DNA of 64,000 nucleotides from Oscillospiraceae bacterium (lineage in GTDB: Bacteria > Bacillota > Clostridia > Oscillospirales > Oscillospiraceae), in contig CACYHB010000003.1 in the NCBI GenBank assembly GCA_902774015.1, forward strand, positions 103,827-167,826. Direction: 5' to 3'. This document shows, piece by piece, positions 1 to 8,268 of this stretch. Numbering within the stretch: position 1 is the first letter of the stretch; each line of letters begins with the position of its first letter. The position numbers were made by a program, and so were the translations under genes. The notes below the pieces were generated by a model that saw nothing but the letters and a program-made list of their open reading frames with translations, ran no database searches and was not told the origin of the DNA.

Positions 1-653
1 CGGTCTTTTCCAGAAACGCGGCACACTCCTCGTCCGTATAGCCCTTGGCAGCGTCGATGAGTTCTCGGGCCTCGATCGCCTCCAGTTCCACGCCGAAAAC
101 GCTCATCAGCTCGCTGTCCAGCGCGCGGCCGAAGCCGAAGCCCTGGGGGGTGTGGCCTACAGCGGACATTTTCAGCGTACGCATCGCGTGCTTCACCCGG
201 GCAGCCGCGGTGCATGCGCGGACGGCGTGAATCACTTCTTCCTCCTCGGGCGAGCCGAAGACGTACGAGAAGGGGCGACAGTCGAAGGCCCTGAGGGCAT
301 TCGCTGCCGAATAAGCACCGGTCAGGGAGTTGAGGCGAAGACGCCCGCCGTCGATGACAGGCTCGCGCAGCGTCCAGAGCAGGATGGGGCAGTCAAAGCG
401 GCGCAGCACCTCGGACATGTAAGCGGCGTTGGCGAAGGTCAGATTCTGAAAAACGATCAGACTGGGCTCCTGGCCATCCAGATAGGCACGGAGCTTGTCC
501 AGCGAGAGCAGCATTTCAGCGGGGCAGACGAAGCGCTCGTCCACACTCTTGAGAAGCTGGATGCTGCGCTCAAACTGATCCTGCGCGCTCTCCAGATGGA
601 AAGTGGGCACGCCGACGGGGATATAAACAGGGGAAAAGGCTTTTGCGGTCATA
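1..653 (-). CDS. L-fucose/L-arabinose isomerase-family sugar isomerase (5' part; candidate sulfoquinovose isomerase)
   Basis: The gene starts at ATG 653-651 behind a GGGAGGT ribosome site and runs off the left edge, so about 217 N-terminal residues are visible. Family hallmarks are a GVPTFHLE stretch near residue 14, FQNLTFAN near 90, LLWTLREP near 112 and GGRLRLNSLTGAY near 122, the arrangement of FucI/AraA-like ketol-isomerases that interconvert aldoses and ketoses. It is transcribed divergently from the split transketolase operon and shares its control region. In known transketolase- and transaldolase-type sulfoglycolysis an isomerase makes 6-deoxy-6-sulfofructose, so this could be that step. 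That role is inferred from context; a plain deoxysugar isomerase remains possible. The C-terminal metal site is outside the window. Confidence 0.75.
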
Positions 654-695
654 GAGCAGACCTCCCGTTGAACTAATTATTAAACACTGGAAACC

Positions 696-724
696 ATCAT
701 AGCCTCCGCCGCTCATTCTGTCAA
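696..724 (-). promoter_or_regulatory. sigma-A-type promoter of the isomerase gene
   Basis: Read on the minus strand, TTGACA (724-719) is followed by a 17-base spacer and TATGAT (701-696). It lies 43 bases ahead of the ATG and back-to-back with the transketolase promoter. Confidence 0.8.
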
Positions 725-728
725 TATT

Positions 729-761
729 ATTGTTGACAATTGCCATGGACGGCGTTACACT
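729..761 (+). promoter_or_regulatory. Promoter and putative operator of the transketolase operon
   Basis: TTGACA (733-738), a 17-base spacer and TACACT (756-761) form a clear promoter. The -35 box sits inside the inverted repeat ATTGT-TG-ACAAT (729-740). The two divergent -35 boxes themselves form TGTCAA-N8-TTGACA (719-738). A repressor bound here would block both transcription units; the ROK regulator at 5136 is the natural candidate (inference). Confidence 0.75.
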
Positions 762-806
762 ACATTTAGTTAGACCCTTGAATTAAACAATGGGAGGAAA
801 TGTAAA

Positions 807-1634
807 TTGGATCACGATATCAGAGAAATCTGCAAGGATATCCGCTGCGACATCATGACCAGCATCGGTCATCTTGGCGTGGGGCATATCGGCGGCTGCC
901 TGTCACTGGTGGAAGTGCTGGCAGTGCTCTATTTTGAAGAGATGAACATCGATCCGGCCAACCCGAAGATGGCCGGAAGGGACCGCCTGGTCTGCTCCAA
1001 GGGGCACGCCGGCCCCGCGGTCTACGCTACGCTTGCCAACCGCGGCTATTTTGACAAGAAGGAGCTGCTGACTCTCAACCAGGGCGGCACGCATCTGCCC
1101 AGCCACTGCGACATGAACCTCACCACCGGCATTGACATGACCACCGGCTCCCTGGGCCAGGGCTTCTCCTGCGCCATGGGCGTTGCGCTGGGCAGCAAGC
1201 TGGAGGGCGACGGCGCCACCATCTACACCATCATCGGCGACGGCGAGAGCCAGGAGGGCCAGATCTGGGAGGCTGCCATGTTCGCCGCCGCAAAGAAGCT
1301 GGATAACCTGATCGCCTTTACCGACTACAACAAGCTCCAGATCGACGGCACCGTGGAACAGGTCAACGACATCGCGCCTCTGGCCGAGAAATGGGCCGCC
1401 TTCGGCTGGAACGTCATTGAGGTGGAGGACGGCAACGATGCGGAGCAGGTGCAGGAGGCCGTGAAGCACGCCAAGCTCGGCCGCGGCAGCGAGAAGCCCA
1501 CCATGGTCATCCTCAATACCAAGAAGGGCTGCGGCGTCAAGTGGATCGAGGACCTGGGACCGGGCAATCACAACTGCAACGTCAACGAGGAGCAGGCCAA
1601 AGCTGCCATCGCAGAGATCAGAGGGGAGGCATAA
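807..1634 (+). CDS. Transketolase, N-terminal (thiamine-diphosphate) subunit
   Basis: 275 residues, the usual size of the N-terminal half of a split transketolase. The ThDP motif GDGESQEG...DYN spans about residues 144-176, and GSLGQGFS near 115 is another conserved loop. It starts at a TTG behind GGGAGG. With the next gene it would form an enzyme moving a two-carbon ketol group between sugars. The neighbouring isomerases and alcohol dehydrogenase, and the absence of a kinase, suggest a donor that already carries a charged terminus, as 6-deoxy-6-sulfofructose does for SqwGH of the sulfo-TK pathway. Apiose and pentose-phosphate transketolases have the same fold, so the substrate is unproven. 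Confidence 0.88.
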   Translation: MDHDIREICKDIRCDIMTSIGHLGVGHIGGCLSLVEVLAVLYFEEMNIDPANPKMAGRDRLVCSKGHAGPAVYATLANRGYFDKKELLTLNQGGTHLPSHCDMNLTTGIDMTTGSLGQGFSCAMGVALGSKLEGDGATIYTIIGDGESQEGQIWEAAMFAAAKKLDNLIAFTDYNKLQIDGTVEQVNDIAPLAEKWAAFGWNVIEVEDGNDAEQVQEAVKHAKLGRGSEKPTMVILNTKKGCGVKWIEDLGPGNHNCNVNEEQAKAAIAEIRGEA

Positions 1635-1637
1635 AAC

Positions 1638-2561
1638 ATGGAAATGAGAGCTGTTTACGCCCAGTGCCTGGCGGAAATGATGGAGAAGGACAAGCACGTG
1701 GTGGTCCTGGACGCGGACCTTTCCAAAGCCAGCGGCACCAGAAACCTTTACGAGCGCTTCCCCGGACAGATGTTTGACTGCGGCGTGGCCGAGGCGAACA
1801 TGGCCTCCATCGCGGCCGGCCTCTCCAGCTACGGCTTCAAGCCCTGGATCGAGAGTTTCACGCCCTTCGCTACCCGCCGCATCTGCGACCAGATCGCGAT
1901 CTCCATCGTTTATGCCAAGCAGAACGTGAAGGTTGTCGGTACCGATCCCGGCATCTCTGCCGAACTCAACGGCGGCACACACATGAGCATGGAGGACATC
2001 GGCGTTCTCCGCTCCATCCCCGGCATGGTGATTTTCGAGCCGGTGGACGAGGTGCAGCTGCGCGCCGCAATGCCCGTTCTGGACGCCTACAAGGGCTGCG
2101 TGTACATGCGCCTGTTCCGCAAGGTCCAGCCGGTCATCTTCCCCGAGGACTACAAGTTTGATCTCTTCAAGGCGGACCTGCTCAAAGAGGGCAGCGATCT
2201 TTCAATCTTCGTCTCCGGCATGATGACGAAGGACGTGCTTGACGCTTCCGAGCTTCTCAAGGAGCAGGGCATCAGCGCCGAGATCATCAACGTCCACACC
2301 ATCAAGCCCATCGACCGGGAGACCGTCATCGCCTCCGCCCGCAAGACCGGCGCCGTGCTGACCGTGGAGAACCACAACGTCATCGGCGGCCTGCACTCCG
2401 CTGTGGTAGAAGCGCTGGCCGAGGAGAAGATCCCCTCCGTCGCCGTGGGCGTGCCCGACCGCTTTGGCGAAGTGGGCAAGATGCCCTATCTGCGCCAGAT
2501 CATGGGCCTCACGGTGGAGAACGTCGTGGAGCAGGCGAAAAAGGCTGTCAGCCTGAAGTAA
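1638..2561 (+). CDS. Transketolase, C-terminal subunit
   Basis: 307 residues holding the Pyr and C-terminal transketolase domains. GVAEANM near residue 54 supplies the glutamate that activates the thiamine ring, and GGTHMSMEDIG near 112 matches the substrate-channel loop. It begins 3 bases after the stop of the N-terminal subunit, so the two are surely co-translated as one enzyme. The C-terminal domain contains TVENHNVIGGLHSAV, typical of transketolase and DXS relatives. Substrate choice cannot be read from the sequence; see the preceding subunit for the sulfosugar argument. Confidence 0.9.
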   Translation: MEMRAVYAQCLAEMMEKDKHVVVLDADLSKASGTRNLYERFPGQMFDCGVAEANMASIAAGLSSYGFKPWIESFTPFATRRICDQIAISIVYAKQNVKVVGTDPGISAELNGGTHMSMEDIGVLRSIPGMVIFEPVDEVQLRAAMPVLDAYKGCVYMRLFRKVQPVIFPEDYKFDLFKADLLKEGSDLSIFVSGMMTKDVLDASELLKEQGISAEIINVHTIKPIDRETVIASARKTGAVLTVENHNVIGGLHSAVVEALAEEKIPSVAVGVPDRFGEVGKMPYLRQIMGLTVENVVEQAKKAVSLK

Positions 2562-2622
2562 GAATAGCAGAATACGAAATCGGGCGGCCGTTCGGCCGCC
2601 CGTCATATGAGAGGAGTTTCCC

Positions 2623-3099
2623 ATGAAAATTGCCATCGGCAGCGATAAATCCGGTTTTTCTGCCAAAGAGGCCATCAAGGCCTGGCTGCAGAACACGGGC
2701 GTGGAGTTTGACGATCTGGGCACCGTGGATCTGGAGCACGTGCACCCCTATTATGAAGTGGCAAACACCGTGGCCCCTCTGGTGCAGAAGGGAGAATATG
2801 ACCGTGCCGTGCTGATCTGCGGCACCGGCGCCGGGATGTGTGTGGTTTCCAACAAGTTCAAAGGCGTGTACGCCGTGGCCTGCGAGGGCGTCTATTCCGC
2901 CAAGATGGCCCGCGCCATCAACAACGCCAACATCCTCTGCATGGGCGGCTGGATCGTCGGTCCTGAGATGGCCGTGGAGATGACCAGGACCTTCCTCGCC
3001 ACCGACTGGTGCCAGGATCTGGAGGACTGGCGCGCTGCCAATATGCACAAGTTCGCCGTTCAGGTCTCCGCCATTGAGGACAGTATCTATGGCAAATGA
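2623..3099 (+). CDS. RpiB/LacAB-family sugar isomerase with altered active site
   Basis: 158 residues with the RpiB fold. The catalytic cysteine is kept in ICGTGAGM (Cys66). Compared from memory with E. coli RpiB, the DH pair near the N-terminus is DK here (Asp8-Lys9), and the ring-opening histidine of the QHND loop aligns with Ile99 in AINN. These changes argue against ribose 5-phosphate and for another C4-C6 substrate. In the sulfo-TK scheme an enzyme of this family turns 4-deoxy-4-sulfoerythrose into 4-deoxy-4-sulfoerythrulose, which has no hemiacetal ring to open. The gene overlaps the next reading frame by 11 bases. Confidence 0.85.
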   Translation: MKIAIGSDKSGFSAKEAIKAWLQNTGVEFDDLGTVDLEHVHPYYEVANTVAPLVQKGEYDRAVLICGTGAGMCVVSNKFKGVYAVACEGVYSAKMARAINNANILCMGGWIVGPEMAVEMTRTFLATDWCQDLEDWRAANMHKFAVQVSAIEDSIYGK

Positions 3100-4189
3100 A
3101 TTCGTCTACGCCCAGCCGGTCAAAATCTGGTTCGGCGAGGGCAAATTCGCGGCGCTCTCTACCATTCTGGAGGAACTGGGCGTAGAACGCGCGGTGCTTG
3201 TCTGCGGGCGTCATTTCGCGCCGCAGGCGCAGGCCATGACGGAGGCGGACAGCCGCTTCGCCGCGGTGTTTTCTCAGGTGGAGCAGAACCCCCAGCTCTC
3301 CGGTATTGAAGAGACCGTGCGCCTCTGCCGCGAGACGGACGCCCAGGCTGTGATCGGCATCGGCGGCGGCAGTTCTCTGGACACCGCCAAGTTTGCCGCC
3401 GCAGTGGCGCCCAACGAGGGGGAGGCCCTCGACTATTATGAAGGCCGCCGGGCCTTTGACGCGAAGAGCAGGCTGCTGATCGTCGCAGTCCCAACCACCG
3501 CCGGTACTGGCAGCGAGGTGACGCAGGTCTCCGTCGTGAGTCACGGCAGGGAGAAGAAGACGATCAACAATCCGGCCTTCATGCCCACCGCCGCTATTGT
3601 GGACCCGCTGATGACCGTCGGCGTTCCGCCCCGCACCACCATGTGCACCGGGCTTGACGCCATGGCCCATGCGCTGGAGGGCTACTGGAGCAAAAACCAC
3701 CAGCCGATCCCTGATCTCACGGCGATCCAGGCTGTGCGGTTGATCCTCGAAAACCTGGAGGCTGCCTACCGTCACGGGGACGACCGGGAGGCCCGCGGCA
3801 ACATGTCGCTGGCCGCGCTGCTCGGCGGGCTCAGCTTTGCTCTGCCCAAGACCGCTGCCAGCCACGCCTGCAGCTATCCTCTCTCGGAGGATTATCACCT
3901 GCCCCACGGGGAGGCCTGCGCCTTCACGCTGGACAGCCTTGTGAAGATCAATGCCGACGAGCGTCTGGGGGCTCTCTGCCGCGCCGTCGGGCTGAAGGAT
4001 ACGGACGAGCTTGCCGCTCGCATCTGCGCCTTCAAGGAGATGGCCGGGCTGAGAAGCAGACTGGGCGATCTGGGTGAAGTCGATCTGGATAAGCTCTGCC
4101 GCGACTGCGCGGCGCACCCGCTGATGAACAATAACCCCGTCAAGCTGGATGAGGCGGCTCTGCGGAGCATGTTTGAAGCTCTGCGATGA
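3089..4189 (+). CDS. Iron-containing (group III) alcohol dehydrogenase; candidate sulfolactaldehyde reductase
   Basis: 366 residues. GIGGGSSLDTAK near residue 93 is the NAD(P)-binding loop, and metal-ligand segments GLDAMAHALEGY and LPHGEACA are present. I chose ATG 3089 (MANEF), behind GAGG at 3076, over an in-frame TTG at 3074. It overlaps the isomerase end by 11 bases, and its own stop overlaps the next start as ATGA, so translation is coupled. The family reduces short aldehydes and includes sulfoacetaldehyde reductases. In this operon reduction of 3-sulfolactaldehyde to dihydroxypropanesulfonate with NADH reoxidation is the best guess; a plain lactaldehyde or glyceraldehyde reductase cannot be excluded. 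Confidence 0.85.
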   Translation: MANEFVYAQPVKIWFGEGKFAALSTILEELGVERAVLVCGRHFAPQAQAMTEADSRFAAVFSQVEQNPQLSGIEETVRLCRETDAQAVIGIGGGSSLDTAKFAAAVAPNEGEALDYYEGRRAFDAKSRLLIVAVPTTAGTGSEVTQVSVVSHGREKKTINNPAFMPTAAIVDPLMTVGVPPRTTMCTGLDAMAHALEGYWSKNHQPIPDLTAIQAVRLILENLEAAYRHGDDREARGNMSLAALLGGLSFALPKTAASHACSYPLSEDYHLPHGEACAFTLDSLVKINADERLGALCRAVGLKDTDELAARICAFKEMAGLRSRLGDLGEVDLDKLCRDCAAHPLMNNNPVKLDEAALRSMFEALR

Positions 4190-5103
4190 AGCATGCCAAT
4201 CGGAACGCCGTGGGAATGATCGGCGGGATGGTGCTGGCCTGGTCCATCTATTACGCCGTGAGCAAGGTGGTGGTTGGCGCCACGGGTTCCGCACTCTTGG
4301 CAGGCTTTCTGCTGCGGCTTTCGGCGCTTCTTTTCCTCACGCTACAGCTTCTGCTGGACGGGAATTTCTCCCGTCTCTTTCATCAGGGGAAAGCGGTCCG
4401 CATCCTGCTGATGATCGGCGTGTTCGGCTTTCTGCTGGATCTGTTTGCCAACCTTGGCTACGCCGGGGGCAGCCTCAGCACAGGCACCGCCCTTTTGAAG
4501 ACCGACGTGCTGATGGTGAACCTGGTGTCGGTGATCCTGTACAAGAAGAAGCTCTACGCGTCCGACTGGCTCGGGACCTTTGTGATGCTCTTCGGCGTGC
4601 TTTTGGTGCTGGGGATAGACTTCGGCAGCATGCGCGTGAGCGTCTACGACCTGTTTTTCATCCTCAGTGCGATGTGCGTCACGGCCAACGCTTTTATCAT
4701 TAAGCGCGCGCAGGACAAATACCACGAGGACGCGGACATGATCTCCTATTACAATAACTTCGTGGTGCTGCTCCTCTTTGGCGGCAGCGCTGCCGTGACG
4801 GGAGACCTGGGCAGCTTTGACTGGGGCGCGCTTGCCAGGCTCTGGTGGCTCGTCCTGCTGGGCGGCCTTGCCCAGACGGGGATCTACTTTTTCTATTACC
4901 GCAATCTGAAGCGCTACGAGGTCTGGGTCGTGAAGCTCTGCCTGCTGCTGATGCCGGTGGTGAGCTGCTTTATCGGCGTGTTCTTCCTCCATGAGGAACT
5001 GACCGTGAAGAAGATGCTGGGGATCCTGGTGGTGCTGGTTGGCGCGGCGATCCTGCTGCTGCGCGGCCGCATCCATCACGAGGGGCCCCCGCTTCGCGGC
5101 TGA
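4186..5103 (+). CDS. EamA/DMT-family transporter
   Basis: 305 residues with about ten hydrophobic helices in two EamA repeats, a polytopic inner-membrane permease of the drug/metabolite superfamily. The start overlaps the dehydrogenase stop (ATGA), placing it firmly in the operon. Possible jobs are uptake of the sugar or export of the fermentation product. Export fits a pathway whose C3 end-product (for example dihydroxypropanesulfonate) is not further used. No substrate signature is recognisable. The last hydrophilic residues are Arg/His rich. Confidence 0.85.
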   Translation: MKHANRNAVGMIGGMVLAWSIYYAVSKVVVGATGSALLAGFLLRLSALLFLTLQLLLDGNFSRLFHQGKAVRILLMIGVFGFLLDLFANLGYAGGSLSTGTALLKTDVLMVNLVSVILYKKKLYASDWLGTFVMLFGVLLVLGIDFGSMRVSVYDLFFILSAMCVTANAFIIKRAQDKYHEDADMISYYNNFVVLLLFGGSAAVTGDLGSFDWGALARLWWLVLLGGLAQTGIYFFYYRNLKRYEVWVVKLCLLLMPVVSCFIGVFFLHEELTVKKMLGILVVLVGAAILLLRGRIHHEGPPLRG

Positions 5104-5135
5104 CCGGTTCAATACAGCGGAAAGGAGAATGTGAA

Positions 5136-6359
5136 ATGCCCTTTGAAGGCGACAATATGATGGGCGTAAAGCGCAATAACCGCAGTGCCGCGCTTCGCAT
5201 CCTCCACAAAAAAGGCGGGATGTCCCGCAAGCGGCTCGCCGAGGCCATCAAACTCACGCCCGCCGCCATCACGAAGATCGTGTCCGAGATGATGAGCGAC
5301 GGCCTGCTGCGGGAGGGCAACGTGCTCCCCAGCGAGGGCGCCGGACGACGGGAGATTCTGGTGGAGTTGGACCCATCCGCGGGCGTCGCTTTGGGCGTGC
5401 TGATCAATCTGCGGCAGACCATTGTCTCCGCCGTCTGGCTGGACGGCTCGGTGATCTTCTCCGAGGAGATCCCGATCGAACCCCACGCCGACGCGGACAG
5501 CACGACGGCCATGCTGGCCGGACGGCTGCTGGCGCTGACGGAAGAGCATCGCATTTCCCGGGAACGGATCGTCGGCCTGGGGCTCGCCGTCCGCGGCATC
5601 ACCTCCTCCGACCGGCGCCGTCTGAACAACAGCTTCGGTTCGCTGCGGCAGGAAAACTATCCGCTTTGTGAGCGCATGGAAGCCCTGACCGGCATCCCCT
5701 GCGTGATGGACAACAATGTGCGCGCTCTTTTCGCGGCCCAGATGTTCCTTTCCGACGACGGCACCAGCGGCTCGCAGTTTTTCCTGCGCTGCGAATACGG
5801 CATCGGCGCGGCTCTCTCCATCGACGACCGCATCTGGCACGGCGTCACGGAGCAGTGCGCCGAGATCGGACACATTCCCGTCATCAAGCGGGGCGGAAAG
5901 CCCTGCTCCTGCGGGAAAAGCGGCTGCCTGGAAACCATTGCCTCGCCCTCTGCGATCCGAGAGGATGCGCTGGCGCTGCTCTCGGAAGAGCGCACGCCGG
6001 TACTCTGGAAGCTCTGTCAGGAACACGGGCGGGACAATCTGACGGTGGACGATATTCTGAACGCTGCGCGCAACGGGGATAACGGTGTGGCTACGGTGGT
6101 GGACAATGCGGTCAACGCGCTGGGCAGCGCGCTCAAATCCGTGATCTATCTCACGGACCCGGGCAAGATCGTGCTCTACGGCGGGATTTTTGAAAACCCC
6201 TACTATCTTTCGCGTCTCCTCAGCGAGATGCGGGAAGGCGTGGACAGCGGCCATGTCACCGTGGTGGAAAAAAGCGTGTTTAACCACCGCCTGGAAAACA
6301 AGGCGGCCGGCCTGTTGGCGGTTCGGCGCTTTTTTGAAAACGGCGGCGTCAGCCTCTGA
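5136..6359 (+). CDS. ROK-family transcriptional regulator
   Basis: 407 residues. An N-terminal winged helix-turn-helix (about residues 12-70, MSRKRLAEAIKLTPAAITKIV) precedes a ROK sugar-kinase-like domain. The zinc motif CSCGKSGCLE near residue 255 is complete, and an ATP-type VMDNNVRA loop lies near 190. ROK repressors such as XylR and NagC bind sugars and release DNA. As last gene of the operon, and with a palindrome spanning the divergent promoters at 719-761, it is the likely local repressor. It follows a strong AAAGGAG site 33 bases after the transporter. Confidence 0.88.
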   Translation: MPFEGDNMMGVKRNNRSAALRILHKKGGMSRKRLAEAIKLTPAAITKIVSEMMSDGLLREGNVLPSEGAGRREILVELDPSAGVALGVLINLRQTIVSAVWLDGSVIFSEEIPIEPHADADSTTAMLAGRLLALTEEHRISRERIVGLGLAVRGITSSDRRRLNNSFGSLRQENYPLCERMEALTGIPCVMDNNVRALFAAQMFLSDDGTSGSQFFLRCEYGIGAALSIDDRIWHGVTEQCAEIGHIPVIKRGGKPCSCGKSGCLETIASPSAIREDALALLSEERTPVLWKLCQEHGRDNLTVDDILNAARNGDNGVATVVDNAVNALGSALKSVIYLTDPGKIVLYGGIFENPYYLSRLLSEMREGVDSGHVTVVEKSVFNHRLENKAAGLLAVRRFFENGGVSL

Positions 6360-6394
6360 CGCATGCGGACACAATAACAAACAACACGACAGGA

Positions 6395-6431
6395 GAAACA
6401 GAGGACGGGAACGGTTTCCGCCCTCTGTTTC
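6395..6431 (+). terminator. Hairpin after the ROK gene
   Basis: GAAACAGAGG (6395-6404) pairs perfectly with CCTCTGTTTC (6422-6431), with extra GG/CC pairing inside. The downstream T-tract is weak, so this may be a terminator or a 3' stabiliser closing the operon. Confidence 0.55.
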
Positions 6432-6603: not shown

Positions 6604-8268
6604 ATGCAGATCAAAAACCCGATTTTGCCCGGCTTTCACGCCGACCCCTGCATTTGCCGCAGGGGAGAGGATTACTACATTGCCGTATCCAGCTTTGAGT
6701 GGTTCCCGGGGATCCCCATCTATCACTCCCGGGACATGAAGCATTGGGAACTCTATACGCATGTTCTGACCGACGCGGAGCAGTGCGACCTGACCCGCCT
6801 GCCTTCCGCCAAGGGGATCTGGGCGCCCTGCCTGACCTACTGCGAGCAGGAGGATCTCTTCTACGTGGTCTACGGCGTGATGAACTCCATGAACGCCCGG
6901 TATTTTGACATCGACAACTATCTCATCACCGCAAAGGACGTCCGCGGGCCGTGGAGCGAGCCGGTATATCTCCATTCCGCCGGCTTTGACGCATCGCTGC
7001 TTCATGACGACAACGGGCGGAAGTGGCTGGTCTCACTGGAATGGGAGACGCGCTCAGGCTACGAGAAGCCCGGCCAGATCTGCATCGTGGAGTATGACCC
7101 GTCGGCAAAGACCATCAAGGGCTATCCGAAGCGGATCTGGCGCGGCGGAACGGATCGGGGCTGCCTGGAGGCGCCGCATCTGACAAAACGCAAAGGGTAT
7201 TATTATCTCATGTGCGCCGAAGGCGGCACTGGCTATTATCATTGCGTCACCATGGCGCGGGCGAAAGACTCCCTCGGCCCTTGGGAGGGAGACCCCACGA
7301 ACCCCATCCTCACGGCGGCGCCGGAGAACCGGAACGAGCGGGCGGACGTGGATCATCTGAAGCCCCGATATTACAATCGGGCGAGCTATCTGCAGAAATG
7401 CGGTCACGGCAGCTATGTGGAAACCACGCTTGGGGAGACCTATCTGGTGCACCTCTGCGCGAGACCCTTCACCCCGGAGCTGCGCTGCACGCTGGGGCGG
7501 GAGACTGCCATCCAGAAGATGCAGTGGACGGAGGACGGCTGGCTGCGCCTCGCCTCCGGCGGCAACATGGCGCAGACCTTCGTTGAGGGGAGCGCGCTTC
7601 CCGACTGGATCCCGGAACCGCTTCCGGAAACAGACAACTTTGACTCGCCCGTGCTGGGTCTGCCTTTCTATGCGCCGCGCATCGACCCGAACAGCTTCTG
7701 CGATCTTCGCGCCCGGCCGGGCTGGCTTCGCATGCGCGGTCAGGAGGCCCAAGCCTCCCTCAACCGTGTCAGCATCCTGGCGCGAAAGCTCCTGAGCCTC
7801 GATGCGGAGATCGTCACCAGGATGGATTTTTATCCGGAGGTCTACCAGCACAGTGCGGGCCTGATCCTTTACTACGATAACATGAATTACGCCTGGCTGC
7901 GCAAATACTGGAGCGACACGCTGGCCGGGCCGGCTATCTCGGTGCTTCGTCTCAATAACGGAGAGAAGACGGAATTTGACAGCGCACGAGCAGCAGTGAG
8001 CGACGGACCCGTCTGGATGAAGCTGCGGGTGCAGGGGAGAGCATCGCAGTTTTCCTGGTCACCGGACGGGGAGACCTGGAATGAGATCGGCCCGGCCTTC
8101 GATACCAGCGAGTTCTCCGATGAATACTCACAGTATGGTGAGTTCACCGGCTGCTTTGTGGGCCTGACCTGCGTTGACAGTCTGCAGCATAAAAAATCCG
8201 CTGACTTTGATTTCTTCACCTACCGTGACCTGGAGGCCAAGGCGCACGAGCAGGACGGGGATTTGTAA
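6604..8268 (+). CDS. Glycoside hydrolase family 43 beta-xylosidase
   Basis: 554 residues. The N-terminal five-bladed propeller starts with NPILPGFHADPCICR, whose Asp near residue 14 is the catalytic base of GH43. It is followed by a C-terminal beta-sandwich (about residues 340-540, DFYPEVYQHSAGLILYYD) typical of GH43 xylosidases acting on xylo-oligosaccharides. There is no signal peptide, so it acts in the cytoplasm on imported oligosaccharides. It stands alone with a GAGGGATT ribosome site; no xylose genes or transporter are next to it. Alpha-L-arabinofuranosidase activity is common in the family and possible. Confidence 0.9.
   Translation: MQIKNPILPGFHADPCICRRGEDYYIAVSSFEWFPGIPIYHSRDMKHWELYTHVLTDAEQCDLTRLPSAKGIWAPCLTYCEQEDLFYVVYGVMNSMNARYFDIDNYLITAKDVRGPWSEPVYLHSAGFDASLLHDDNGRKWLVSLEWETRSGYEKPGQICIVEYDPSAKTIKGYPKRIWRGGTDRGCLEAPHLTKRKGYYYLMCAEGGTGYYHCVTMARAKDSLGPWEGDPTNPILTAAPENRNERADVDHLKPRYYNRASYLQKCGHGSYVETTLGETYLVHLCARPFTPELRCTLGRETAIQKMQWTEDGWLRLASGGNMAQTFVEGSALPDWIPEPLPETDNFDSPVLGLPFYAPRIDPNSFCDLRARPGWLRMRGQEAQASLNRVSILARKLLSLDAEIVTRMDFYPEVYQHSAGLILYYDNMNYAWLRKYWSDTLAGPAISVLRLNNGEKTEFDSARAAVSDGPVWMKLRVQGRASQFSWSPDGETWNEIGPAFDTSEFSDEYSQYGEFTGCFVGLTCVDSLQHKKSADFDFFTYRDLEAKAHEQDGDL

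Follow-up and report, generated by a model that had tools for sequence, protein, structure and literature searches.

Two described systems come closest to the locus considered here. In Clostridium sp. MSTE9, the transketolase-type (sulfo-TK) pathway of sulfoquinovose (SQ) breakdown comprises SqvD, SqwGH, SqwI, SqwF and SqwE, with SqwF reducing sulfoacetaldehyde to isethionate (PMC9594981, PMC11659671). A reductive, isethionate-forming variant has also been described in rumen Candidatus Limivicinus; the same paper gives the pathway in 35.5% of 313 genomes and two yihQ copies in some Limivicinus species (PMC13219744). The present locus lies at the left end of a 64,000-nucleotide stretch of an Oscillospiraceae genome (the window; bases 103827-167826 of contig CACYHB010000003.1, here C3, in a draft assembly of 2.78 Mb and 88 contigs), whose genus is probably Candidatus Limivicinus. 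Judged from gene families and residue signatures, the cluster very probably encodes a reductive sulfo-TK pathway, with isethionate as the predicted end product. As the pathway is already published, the window provides a further example of it. An earlier sequence-only reading of the window had proposed a sulfo-TK locus made of an isomerase, a split transketolase, a C4 isomerase, a reductase, an EamA protein and a ROK regulator, and the signatures and co-occurrence described below bear this out. The features are as follows.

1..652, minus strand: SQ isomerase of SqvD/SftI type, first 217 of 448 codons (NF048012)
653..806, no strand: divergent control region, the 154-base gap between isomerase and transketolase
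696..724, minus strand: promoter-like site on the isomerase side, TTGACA-17-TATGAT, 11/12 (L004 12551-12523)
733..761, plus strand: promoter-like site on the transketolase operon side, TTGACA-17-TACACT, 10/12 (L004 12560-12588)
807..1634, plus strand: SqwG, N-terminal half of a split sulfofructose (SF) transketolase (PF00456, 161 bits; TTG start behind GGAGG)
1638..2561, plus strand: SqwH, C-terminal half of the split SF transketolase (PF02779, PF02780; head-group His replaced by Asp)
2623..3099, plus strand: SqwI, RpiB-like C4 isomerase (PF02502; SDKSG / RAIN / LExWR)
3092..4189, plus strand: SqwF, predicted metal-dependent sulfoacetaldehyde reductase (closest solved chain 6jko, BkTauF)
4186..5103, plus strand: EamA-family membrane protein, candidate isethionate exporter (PF00892)
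5136..6359, plus strand: ROK-family regulator with an N-terminal winged helix, NagC-like (PF00480 plus helix-turn-helix)

All seven genes of the sequence-only reading were recovered at their positions when the gene calls were rechecked. The window edge truncates the isomerase gene, the remainder of which lies on the same contig (to L004:11133; L004 is the stretch of C3 holding the locus and its left flank, and counts as the window itself in the locus tallies). The six plus-strand genes (807-6359) are closely packed, with 3 bases between the transketolase halves and overlaps between the genes for SqwI and the alcohol dehydrogenase (ADH) and between those for the ADH and the EamA protein. The single divergent control region proposed earlier was likewise found, as the 154-base gap carries two divergent sigma-70-like sites (0.8 expected from shuffles of the scanned stretch) and alignment with the corresponding gaps from 20 relatives shows the facing -35 boxes again. 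Faecalispora jeddahensis (L110) served as a proxy for MSTE9, its gene order fitting the MSTE9 gene numbers in PMC11659671. It shares with the window the same enzymes, the G-H-I order divergent from the isomerase gene and the head-group Asp, at 51-61% identity for the isomerase, transketolase and SqwI. The two differ in the place of the ADH gene (after SqwI in the window, before SqwG in L110) and in the EamA gene, which is part of the window operon and was not found in L110; unlike the MSTE9 system, the window cluster also lacks YihQ and DUF4867.

The sole NCBIfam match of the isomerase is NF048012, the SQ isomerase SftI (residues 9-446, 379.5 bits). A search for solved chains related to it by sequence returned none, the single match being serum albumin at E 0.27. 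A 91% identical isomerase from locus L095 was modelled: the model, built from 22 sequences (mean predicted local distance difference test score 85.8), is similar to L-arabinose isomerases, with E values as low as 8.9e-26, and also to L-fucose isomerases such as 1fui, so that the modelled fold is of the L-arabinose/L-fucose isomerase type. Glu285, Asp309 and His420 are invariant across the 22 sequences; by comparison with the ligands of FucI, they are presumably the metal ligands. The full-length NF048012 match and the fold together place the enzyme among SqvD/SftI-type SQ isomerases, even though its score falls under the model's cut-off.

SqwI has a sequence signature of its own. A match to the protein was found in 31 loci, one of which (L080) proved to be an ordinary RpiB, leaving 30 SQ-linked loci with the window included and three genomes represented twice (L032/L095, L034/L085, L035/L042). 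SDKSG is present in 29 of the 30 (L078 has Gly for Lys), RAIN in all 30, and the LExWR tail in 29 (L033 changes frame before the tail). All three occur together in 28/30 SQ-linked loci versus 0/27 ordinary RpiB proteins, the latter being those with an alignable start among the 30 best background loci drawn from 59 order genomes. Ordinary RpiB has His at the Ile position of SqwI in 27/27 and the His of SDH in 25/27. SqwI differs by replacement of the ring-opening His with Ile and of His10 with Lys, and by loss of the phosphate-binding Args, while the catalytic Cys motif CGTG and the PF02502 fold family are retained. The tree check of the RpiB-like protein proposed in the sequence-only reading agreed: in a quick tree, all 28 ordinary RpiB proteins (L080 included) are found on the same side of a branch with full support. 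The same tree does not show the SQ-linked SqwI proteins as one clade, with L200-L203 near L110 at weak support. Signature and tree together argue for a SqwI-type C4 isomerase distinct from RpiB; an ordinary RpiB is encoded elsewhere in the window's genome, on contig C22.

According to PMC4783025, His11, Arg137 and Arg141 anchor the phosphate, and H99N in EcRpiB lowers kcat 26-fold. To that last His PMC3212906 assigns the ring-opening role, and it supposes that proteins without this residue act on shorter substrates. The loss of this residue fits a 4-deoxy-4-sulfoerythrose substrate, for which it would be dispensable because that sugar, having no 4-hydroxyl, cannot close a furanose ring. A 2022 review considers SqwI in need of further characterisation. 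The signature offers a usable and chemically sensible sequence test that separates SqwI from RpiB.

The split SqwGH adjoins the isomerase gene and lies outside the pentose-phosphate transketolases. SqwG is 56% identical to its counterpart in the Faecalispora jeddahensis SQ locus. PMC11659671 contrasts RSFHR in ordinary transketolases with RAFDR in SF transketolases. Asp stands at the head-group His position in 30/30 aligned SQ-linked loci (window included), and the 6yaj and 4kxu chains have His there; at the Ser position of RSFHR the alignment column gives Lys in the window, a possibly misplaced residue that was not used. A transketolase tree, the other check that the earlier reading had proposed, set the window's enzyme apart from the His types by a branch with support of 100/99, but proved a weak discriminator since Asp-type enzymes from outside SQ loci share the window's side of that branch; the tree held no reference apiose transketolase. 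As a marker of sulfo-TK, the His-to-Asp change was rejected, being common to split transketolases outside SQ loci.

These outside enzymes are also what an ordinary or branched sugar route (apiose or pentose) with a split transketolase and an RpiB-like isomerase has in its favour, together with the ABC (ATP-binding cassette) transporter and GH43 (glycoside hydrolase) gene that flank the cluster. Such a route can scarcely be credited. No sugar kinase was found by Pfam and NCBIfam among the genes scanned to the left (L004) or right of the cluster, which upholds the absence of a kinase noted earlier for the window; SqwI lacks the phosphate Args and the ring-opening His; the ADH resembles BkTauF; and the ABC transporter is unassociated with the isomerase. 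Neither an aldolase nor a transaldolase was found among the window and upstream genes scanned in the same way, and an SF transaldolase, as a sulfo-TAL (transaldolase) pathway would have, is thus missing from those genes.

Within the tree, the window transketolase is placed together with the genus and L111 (support 100/96). A second SQ group comprises Faecalispora, Massiliimalia and L078, and L035/L042/L043 make up a third. A single clade for all 31 SQ-linked rows was rejected (p-AU 2.5e-05), and without L035/L042/L043 it was not (p 0.47, for a set chosen after seeing the tree). That SQ-linked transketolases do not form one clade may be a new observation, and on these sequences the sulfo-TK transketolase may have been recruited more than once. 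L035/L042 and L043 represent a second sulfo-TK cluster type; its genes stand in another order, and in the tree its transketolase lies with genes from non-SQ loci.

The ADH bears on the end product. Its closest solved chain is 6jko at 263 bits, the next scoring 169. According to PMC6616044, 6JKO is apo BkTauF, the sulfoacetaldehyde reductase of Bifidobacterium kashiwanohense; T257A and F265A are almost inactive, F252A retains about 28%, and Tyr occurs at 265 in some homologues. The window ADH has Phe at 252, Thr at 257 and Tyr at 265 (BkTauF numbering), thereby sharing F252, T257 and an aromatic residue at 265. It differs in that BkTauF comes from taurine clusters and in metal position 196, which is Gln in BkTauF and His in the window. 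Thr257 is retained in 24/24 aligned transketolase-linked loci (window included; a 25th ADH locus, L096, fell under the coverage limit, and nine transketolase loci have no ADH match in the available stretch). Leu and His stand at these positions instead in the genome's FucO-like ADH and in the ADHs of L053, L064 and L083, which are SQ loci without a transketolase match. Closest to BkTauF and with its substrate residues kept, the ADH is a predicted SqwF-type sulfoacetaldehyde reductase.

In the pathway proposed, reactions of described enzymes are applied to the gene content, order, families, residue signatures, co-occurrence and YihQ-family GH31 linkage observed here. The SftI-type isomerase would convert SQ to 6-deoxy-6-sulfofructose, from which SqwGH would transfer the C1-C2 unit to glyceraldehyde 3-phosphate; the products would be xylulose 5-phosphate and 4-deoxy-4-sulfoerythrose. 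SqwI would turn the latter into the ketose, SqwGH would remove the second C2 unit to leave sulfoacetaldehyde, and the ADH would reduce this to isethionate with regeneration of NAD+. Sulfoacetaldehyde is the expected C2 remainder because two C2 units are taken from a C6 sulfosugar. The EamA protein might export isethionate, and the ROK protein probably senses a sulfosugar at the divergent promoters. The sequence-only reading had ended the route with reduction of sulfolactaldehyde to dihydroxypropanesulfonate. This version is highly improbable, being contradicted by the carbon count of the two cuts, the published isethionate product and the sulfoacetaldehyde-reductase-like ADH, and nothing was found in its favour. 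Isethionate made from SQ, the sulfur sugar of plant leaves, would feed sulfide-forming neighbours, in a genus mostly of herbivore-gut Clostridia.

The distribution of the genes among relatives agrees with the sulfo-TK reading. A search of 149 related genomes gave the isomerase in 64 (E 1e-20); leaving out three same-order genomes and G008 (a 24% match), it is present in 60 of 91 genus genomes, as fragments only in G003 and G050 and in two pieces in G007, G011, G032 and G043. A SqwI-type isomerase (54% or more; partial in G050) is present in 57/91. Both occur in 56 of the genus genomes, the isomerase alone in four (G003, G005, G025, G026), SqwI alone in one (G002) and neither in 30. For the isomerase and a YihQ-family GH31 the counts are 55 both, five isomerase only, one GH31 only and 30 neither. 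The genomes being related, a Fisher p for these tables is not a probability. The order isomerase, SqwG, SqwH, RpiB-like, ADH, EamA recurs in 15 genomes besides the window's, with the ROK gene too in 11 of them, and the same gene set occurs in other orders at L035/L042, L043, L082 and L111. Among the matches listed in a scan of named genomes (the best 80 of 393 relatives) are Faecalispora, Massiliimalia, Faecalicatena, Faecalibacterium, Butyrivibrio and other Lachnospiraceae. The wider set comprises 92 SQ-isomerase loci (L004 plus 91 more, five genomes appearing twice), with a YihQ-family match in 67, DUF4867 in 53, a ROK match in 66 and a transketolase half in 34. SQ loci of other lineages also carry the EamA gene, with about 40-44% identity.

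Several findings count against the assignment of this cluster to sulfo-TK. The isomerase score of 379.5 lies below the model cut-off of 700, making the protein a relative outside the strict limit, and the identity of the ADH to its Faecalispora counterpart is only 34% (31% to FucO; 209 versus 144 bits). The head-group Asp is unspecific: among the 29 background genes that score highest in 147 order genomes once the window's own is set aside, Asp occurs in 17 and His in 12. The ring-opening His is also missing from four RpiB-like proteins that lie outside SQ loci (L200-L203). A transketolase match is present in only 34/92 loci, therefore the isomerase alone does not mean sulfo-TK, and nine of the 34 have no ADH match. 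No DUF4867 gene lies in the cluster, the genome's copy being on contig C8. No QRWY-type YihQ was found in the genome, and its single YihQ-family gene is unlinked, on C9, with an altered pocket. Finally, the assembly is a draft (completeness 94.27, contamination 5.91).

Some of these points can be described further. L200-L203 belong to other families and have RAI at the position in question, a different N-terminal motif and long, different tails. Fourteen of the background transketolase regions (13 Asp-type, one His-type) were read and gave no isomerase or SqwI-like match at E 1e-6, several of the contigs being short; an iron-type ADH at 30-31% occurs in three of them. Seven of the nine ADH-less transketolase loci sit on short or cut stretches. 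The other two, L039 and L078, are not obviously so; they are transketolase-type SQ loci that possibly represent an oxidative, sulfoacetate-forming variant.

As regards the release of SQ, the genome differs from Limivicinus as published in that the only YihQ-family gene found is altered and unlinked. The genome has two GH31 genes, on contigs C9 and C1. The C9 protein passes NCBIfam PRK10426 (609.3 bits, cut-off 553), a model named alpha-glucosidase that we take to be the YihQ model, and the C1 protein fails it (119.2). The C9 enzyme and its neighbour are

L030:7471-9525, minus strand: YihQ-family GH31
L030:6028-7449, minus strand: adjoining GPH symporter

In the alignment to YihQ of E. coli (5aed), Gln288, Trp304, Asp405 and Asp472 are conserved in the C9 enzyme, which carries R301Q and Y508F at positions that we assume hold the sulfonate. 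The genome's only YihQ-family enzyme found has lost two of four presumed sulfonate-pocket residues (QRWY to QQWF), which is possibly new. No paper on this pocket change was found in the openly available literature, subscription papers lying outside that scope; PMC11465081 concerns an altered residue in GH188.

In 100 aligned rows including E. coli, with some genomes counted twice, the pocket is QRWY in 51, QQWF in 29, QQWY in 17 and without a residue at 508 in three. QRWY-intact YihQ-family genes adjoin the isomerase in relatives. The C9-type gene (55% identity or more, some in pieces) occurs in 29 genus genomes, some copies having in-frame stops, and lies on the isomerase contig within about 10 kb in seven of them (G004, G019, G049, G054, G063, G072, G073). 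Counted in draft assemblies, which may miss genes, the isomerase-bearing genus genomes divide into 16 with QQWF only (the window's included), 12 with both types, 27 with the other type only and five with none.

Alternatively, the sulfo-TK core might act on a 6-sulfosugar other than SQ, or on SQ from a different glycoside, to which the QQWF glycosidase and its GPH transporter would be suited. The 16/60 genomes in which QQWF is the only YihQ-family gene and the 7/29 in which it shares the isomerase contig speak for this. We nevertheless regard it as unlikely: both GH31 types occur in 12 genus genomes, in L117, where both are found, the enzymes of the cluster resemble those of the other loci, and the sulfonate-binding roles of R301 and Y508 are presumed. 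Neither transketolase similarity nor GH31 family membership is by itself enough to mark a locus as sulfo-TK or an enzyme as a sulfoquinovosidase. A possible operator shared by the cluster's regulator and the C9 glycosidase was looked for with a 19-base motif derived from 11 control regions. Of the 25 QQWF-type upstream regions, three score high (p 0.018, 0.023, 0.051); the region taken for C9 in that comparison did not include the promoter site. The best site in the C9 stretch is at the glycosidase promoter, with a score of 7.5 that is within background (median 2.3, 95% 15.3).

Extension to the left, where the sequence-only reading had suggested looking for a GH31, a kinase or a transporter, did reveal a transporter. 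The ATPase, two permeases and binding protein of a CUT1-type ABC transporter lie 527 bases beyond the isomerase on the same strand. As an SQ importer it was rejected, since association with the isomerase is absent: of 91 genus genomes, 38 have both, 22 the isomerase without the transporter, 16 the transporter without the isomerase and 15 neither. Genus and order genomes carry its binding protein at 64-88% identity. From a search of the other 91 loci no match to that protein was kept, the permeases were 21-32% alike and the ATPase up to 41%. Farther left are a small lipoprotein-like gene, an FRG-domain protein, an acetyltransferase and an NTPase. To the right of the ROK gene follow a GH43 gene, a SigK-like sigma factor and an asparaginase. 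The GH43 beta-xylosidase-like gene (window 6604-8268) was rejected as part of the system, with no match in the other 91 loci (E 1e-8, 40% coverage; many stretches short). The upstream transporter and the downstream GH43 gene both look unrelated to the cluster.

Further observations concern single loci. The FRG-domain protein near the ABC transporter is encoded at L004:4232-5038 on the plus strand. G061 has a QQWF-type GH31 without the isomerase. The QQWY pocket occurs in a YihQ-family enzyme at SQ-isomerase loci of other Clostridia (L059, L066, L068, L071, L074, L076, L081, L086, L087, L088, L089, L100, L103, L109, L112, L118 and L121); L087 has a QRWY YihQ-family enzyme as well. On contig C8 (L029:6300-9918), the DUF4867 gene lies between a xylulokinase gene and a fucose-isomerase-like gene, and on C1 (L028:14970-18367) a carboxylesterase-like gene is directly followed by the non-YihQ GH31 gene.

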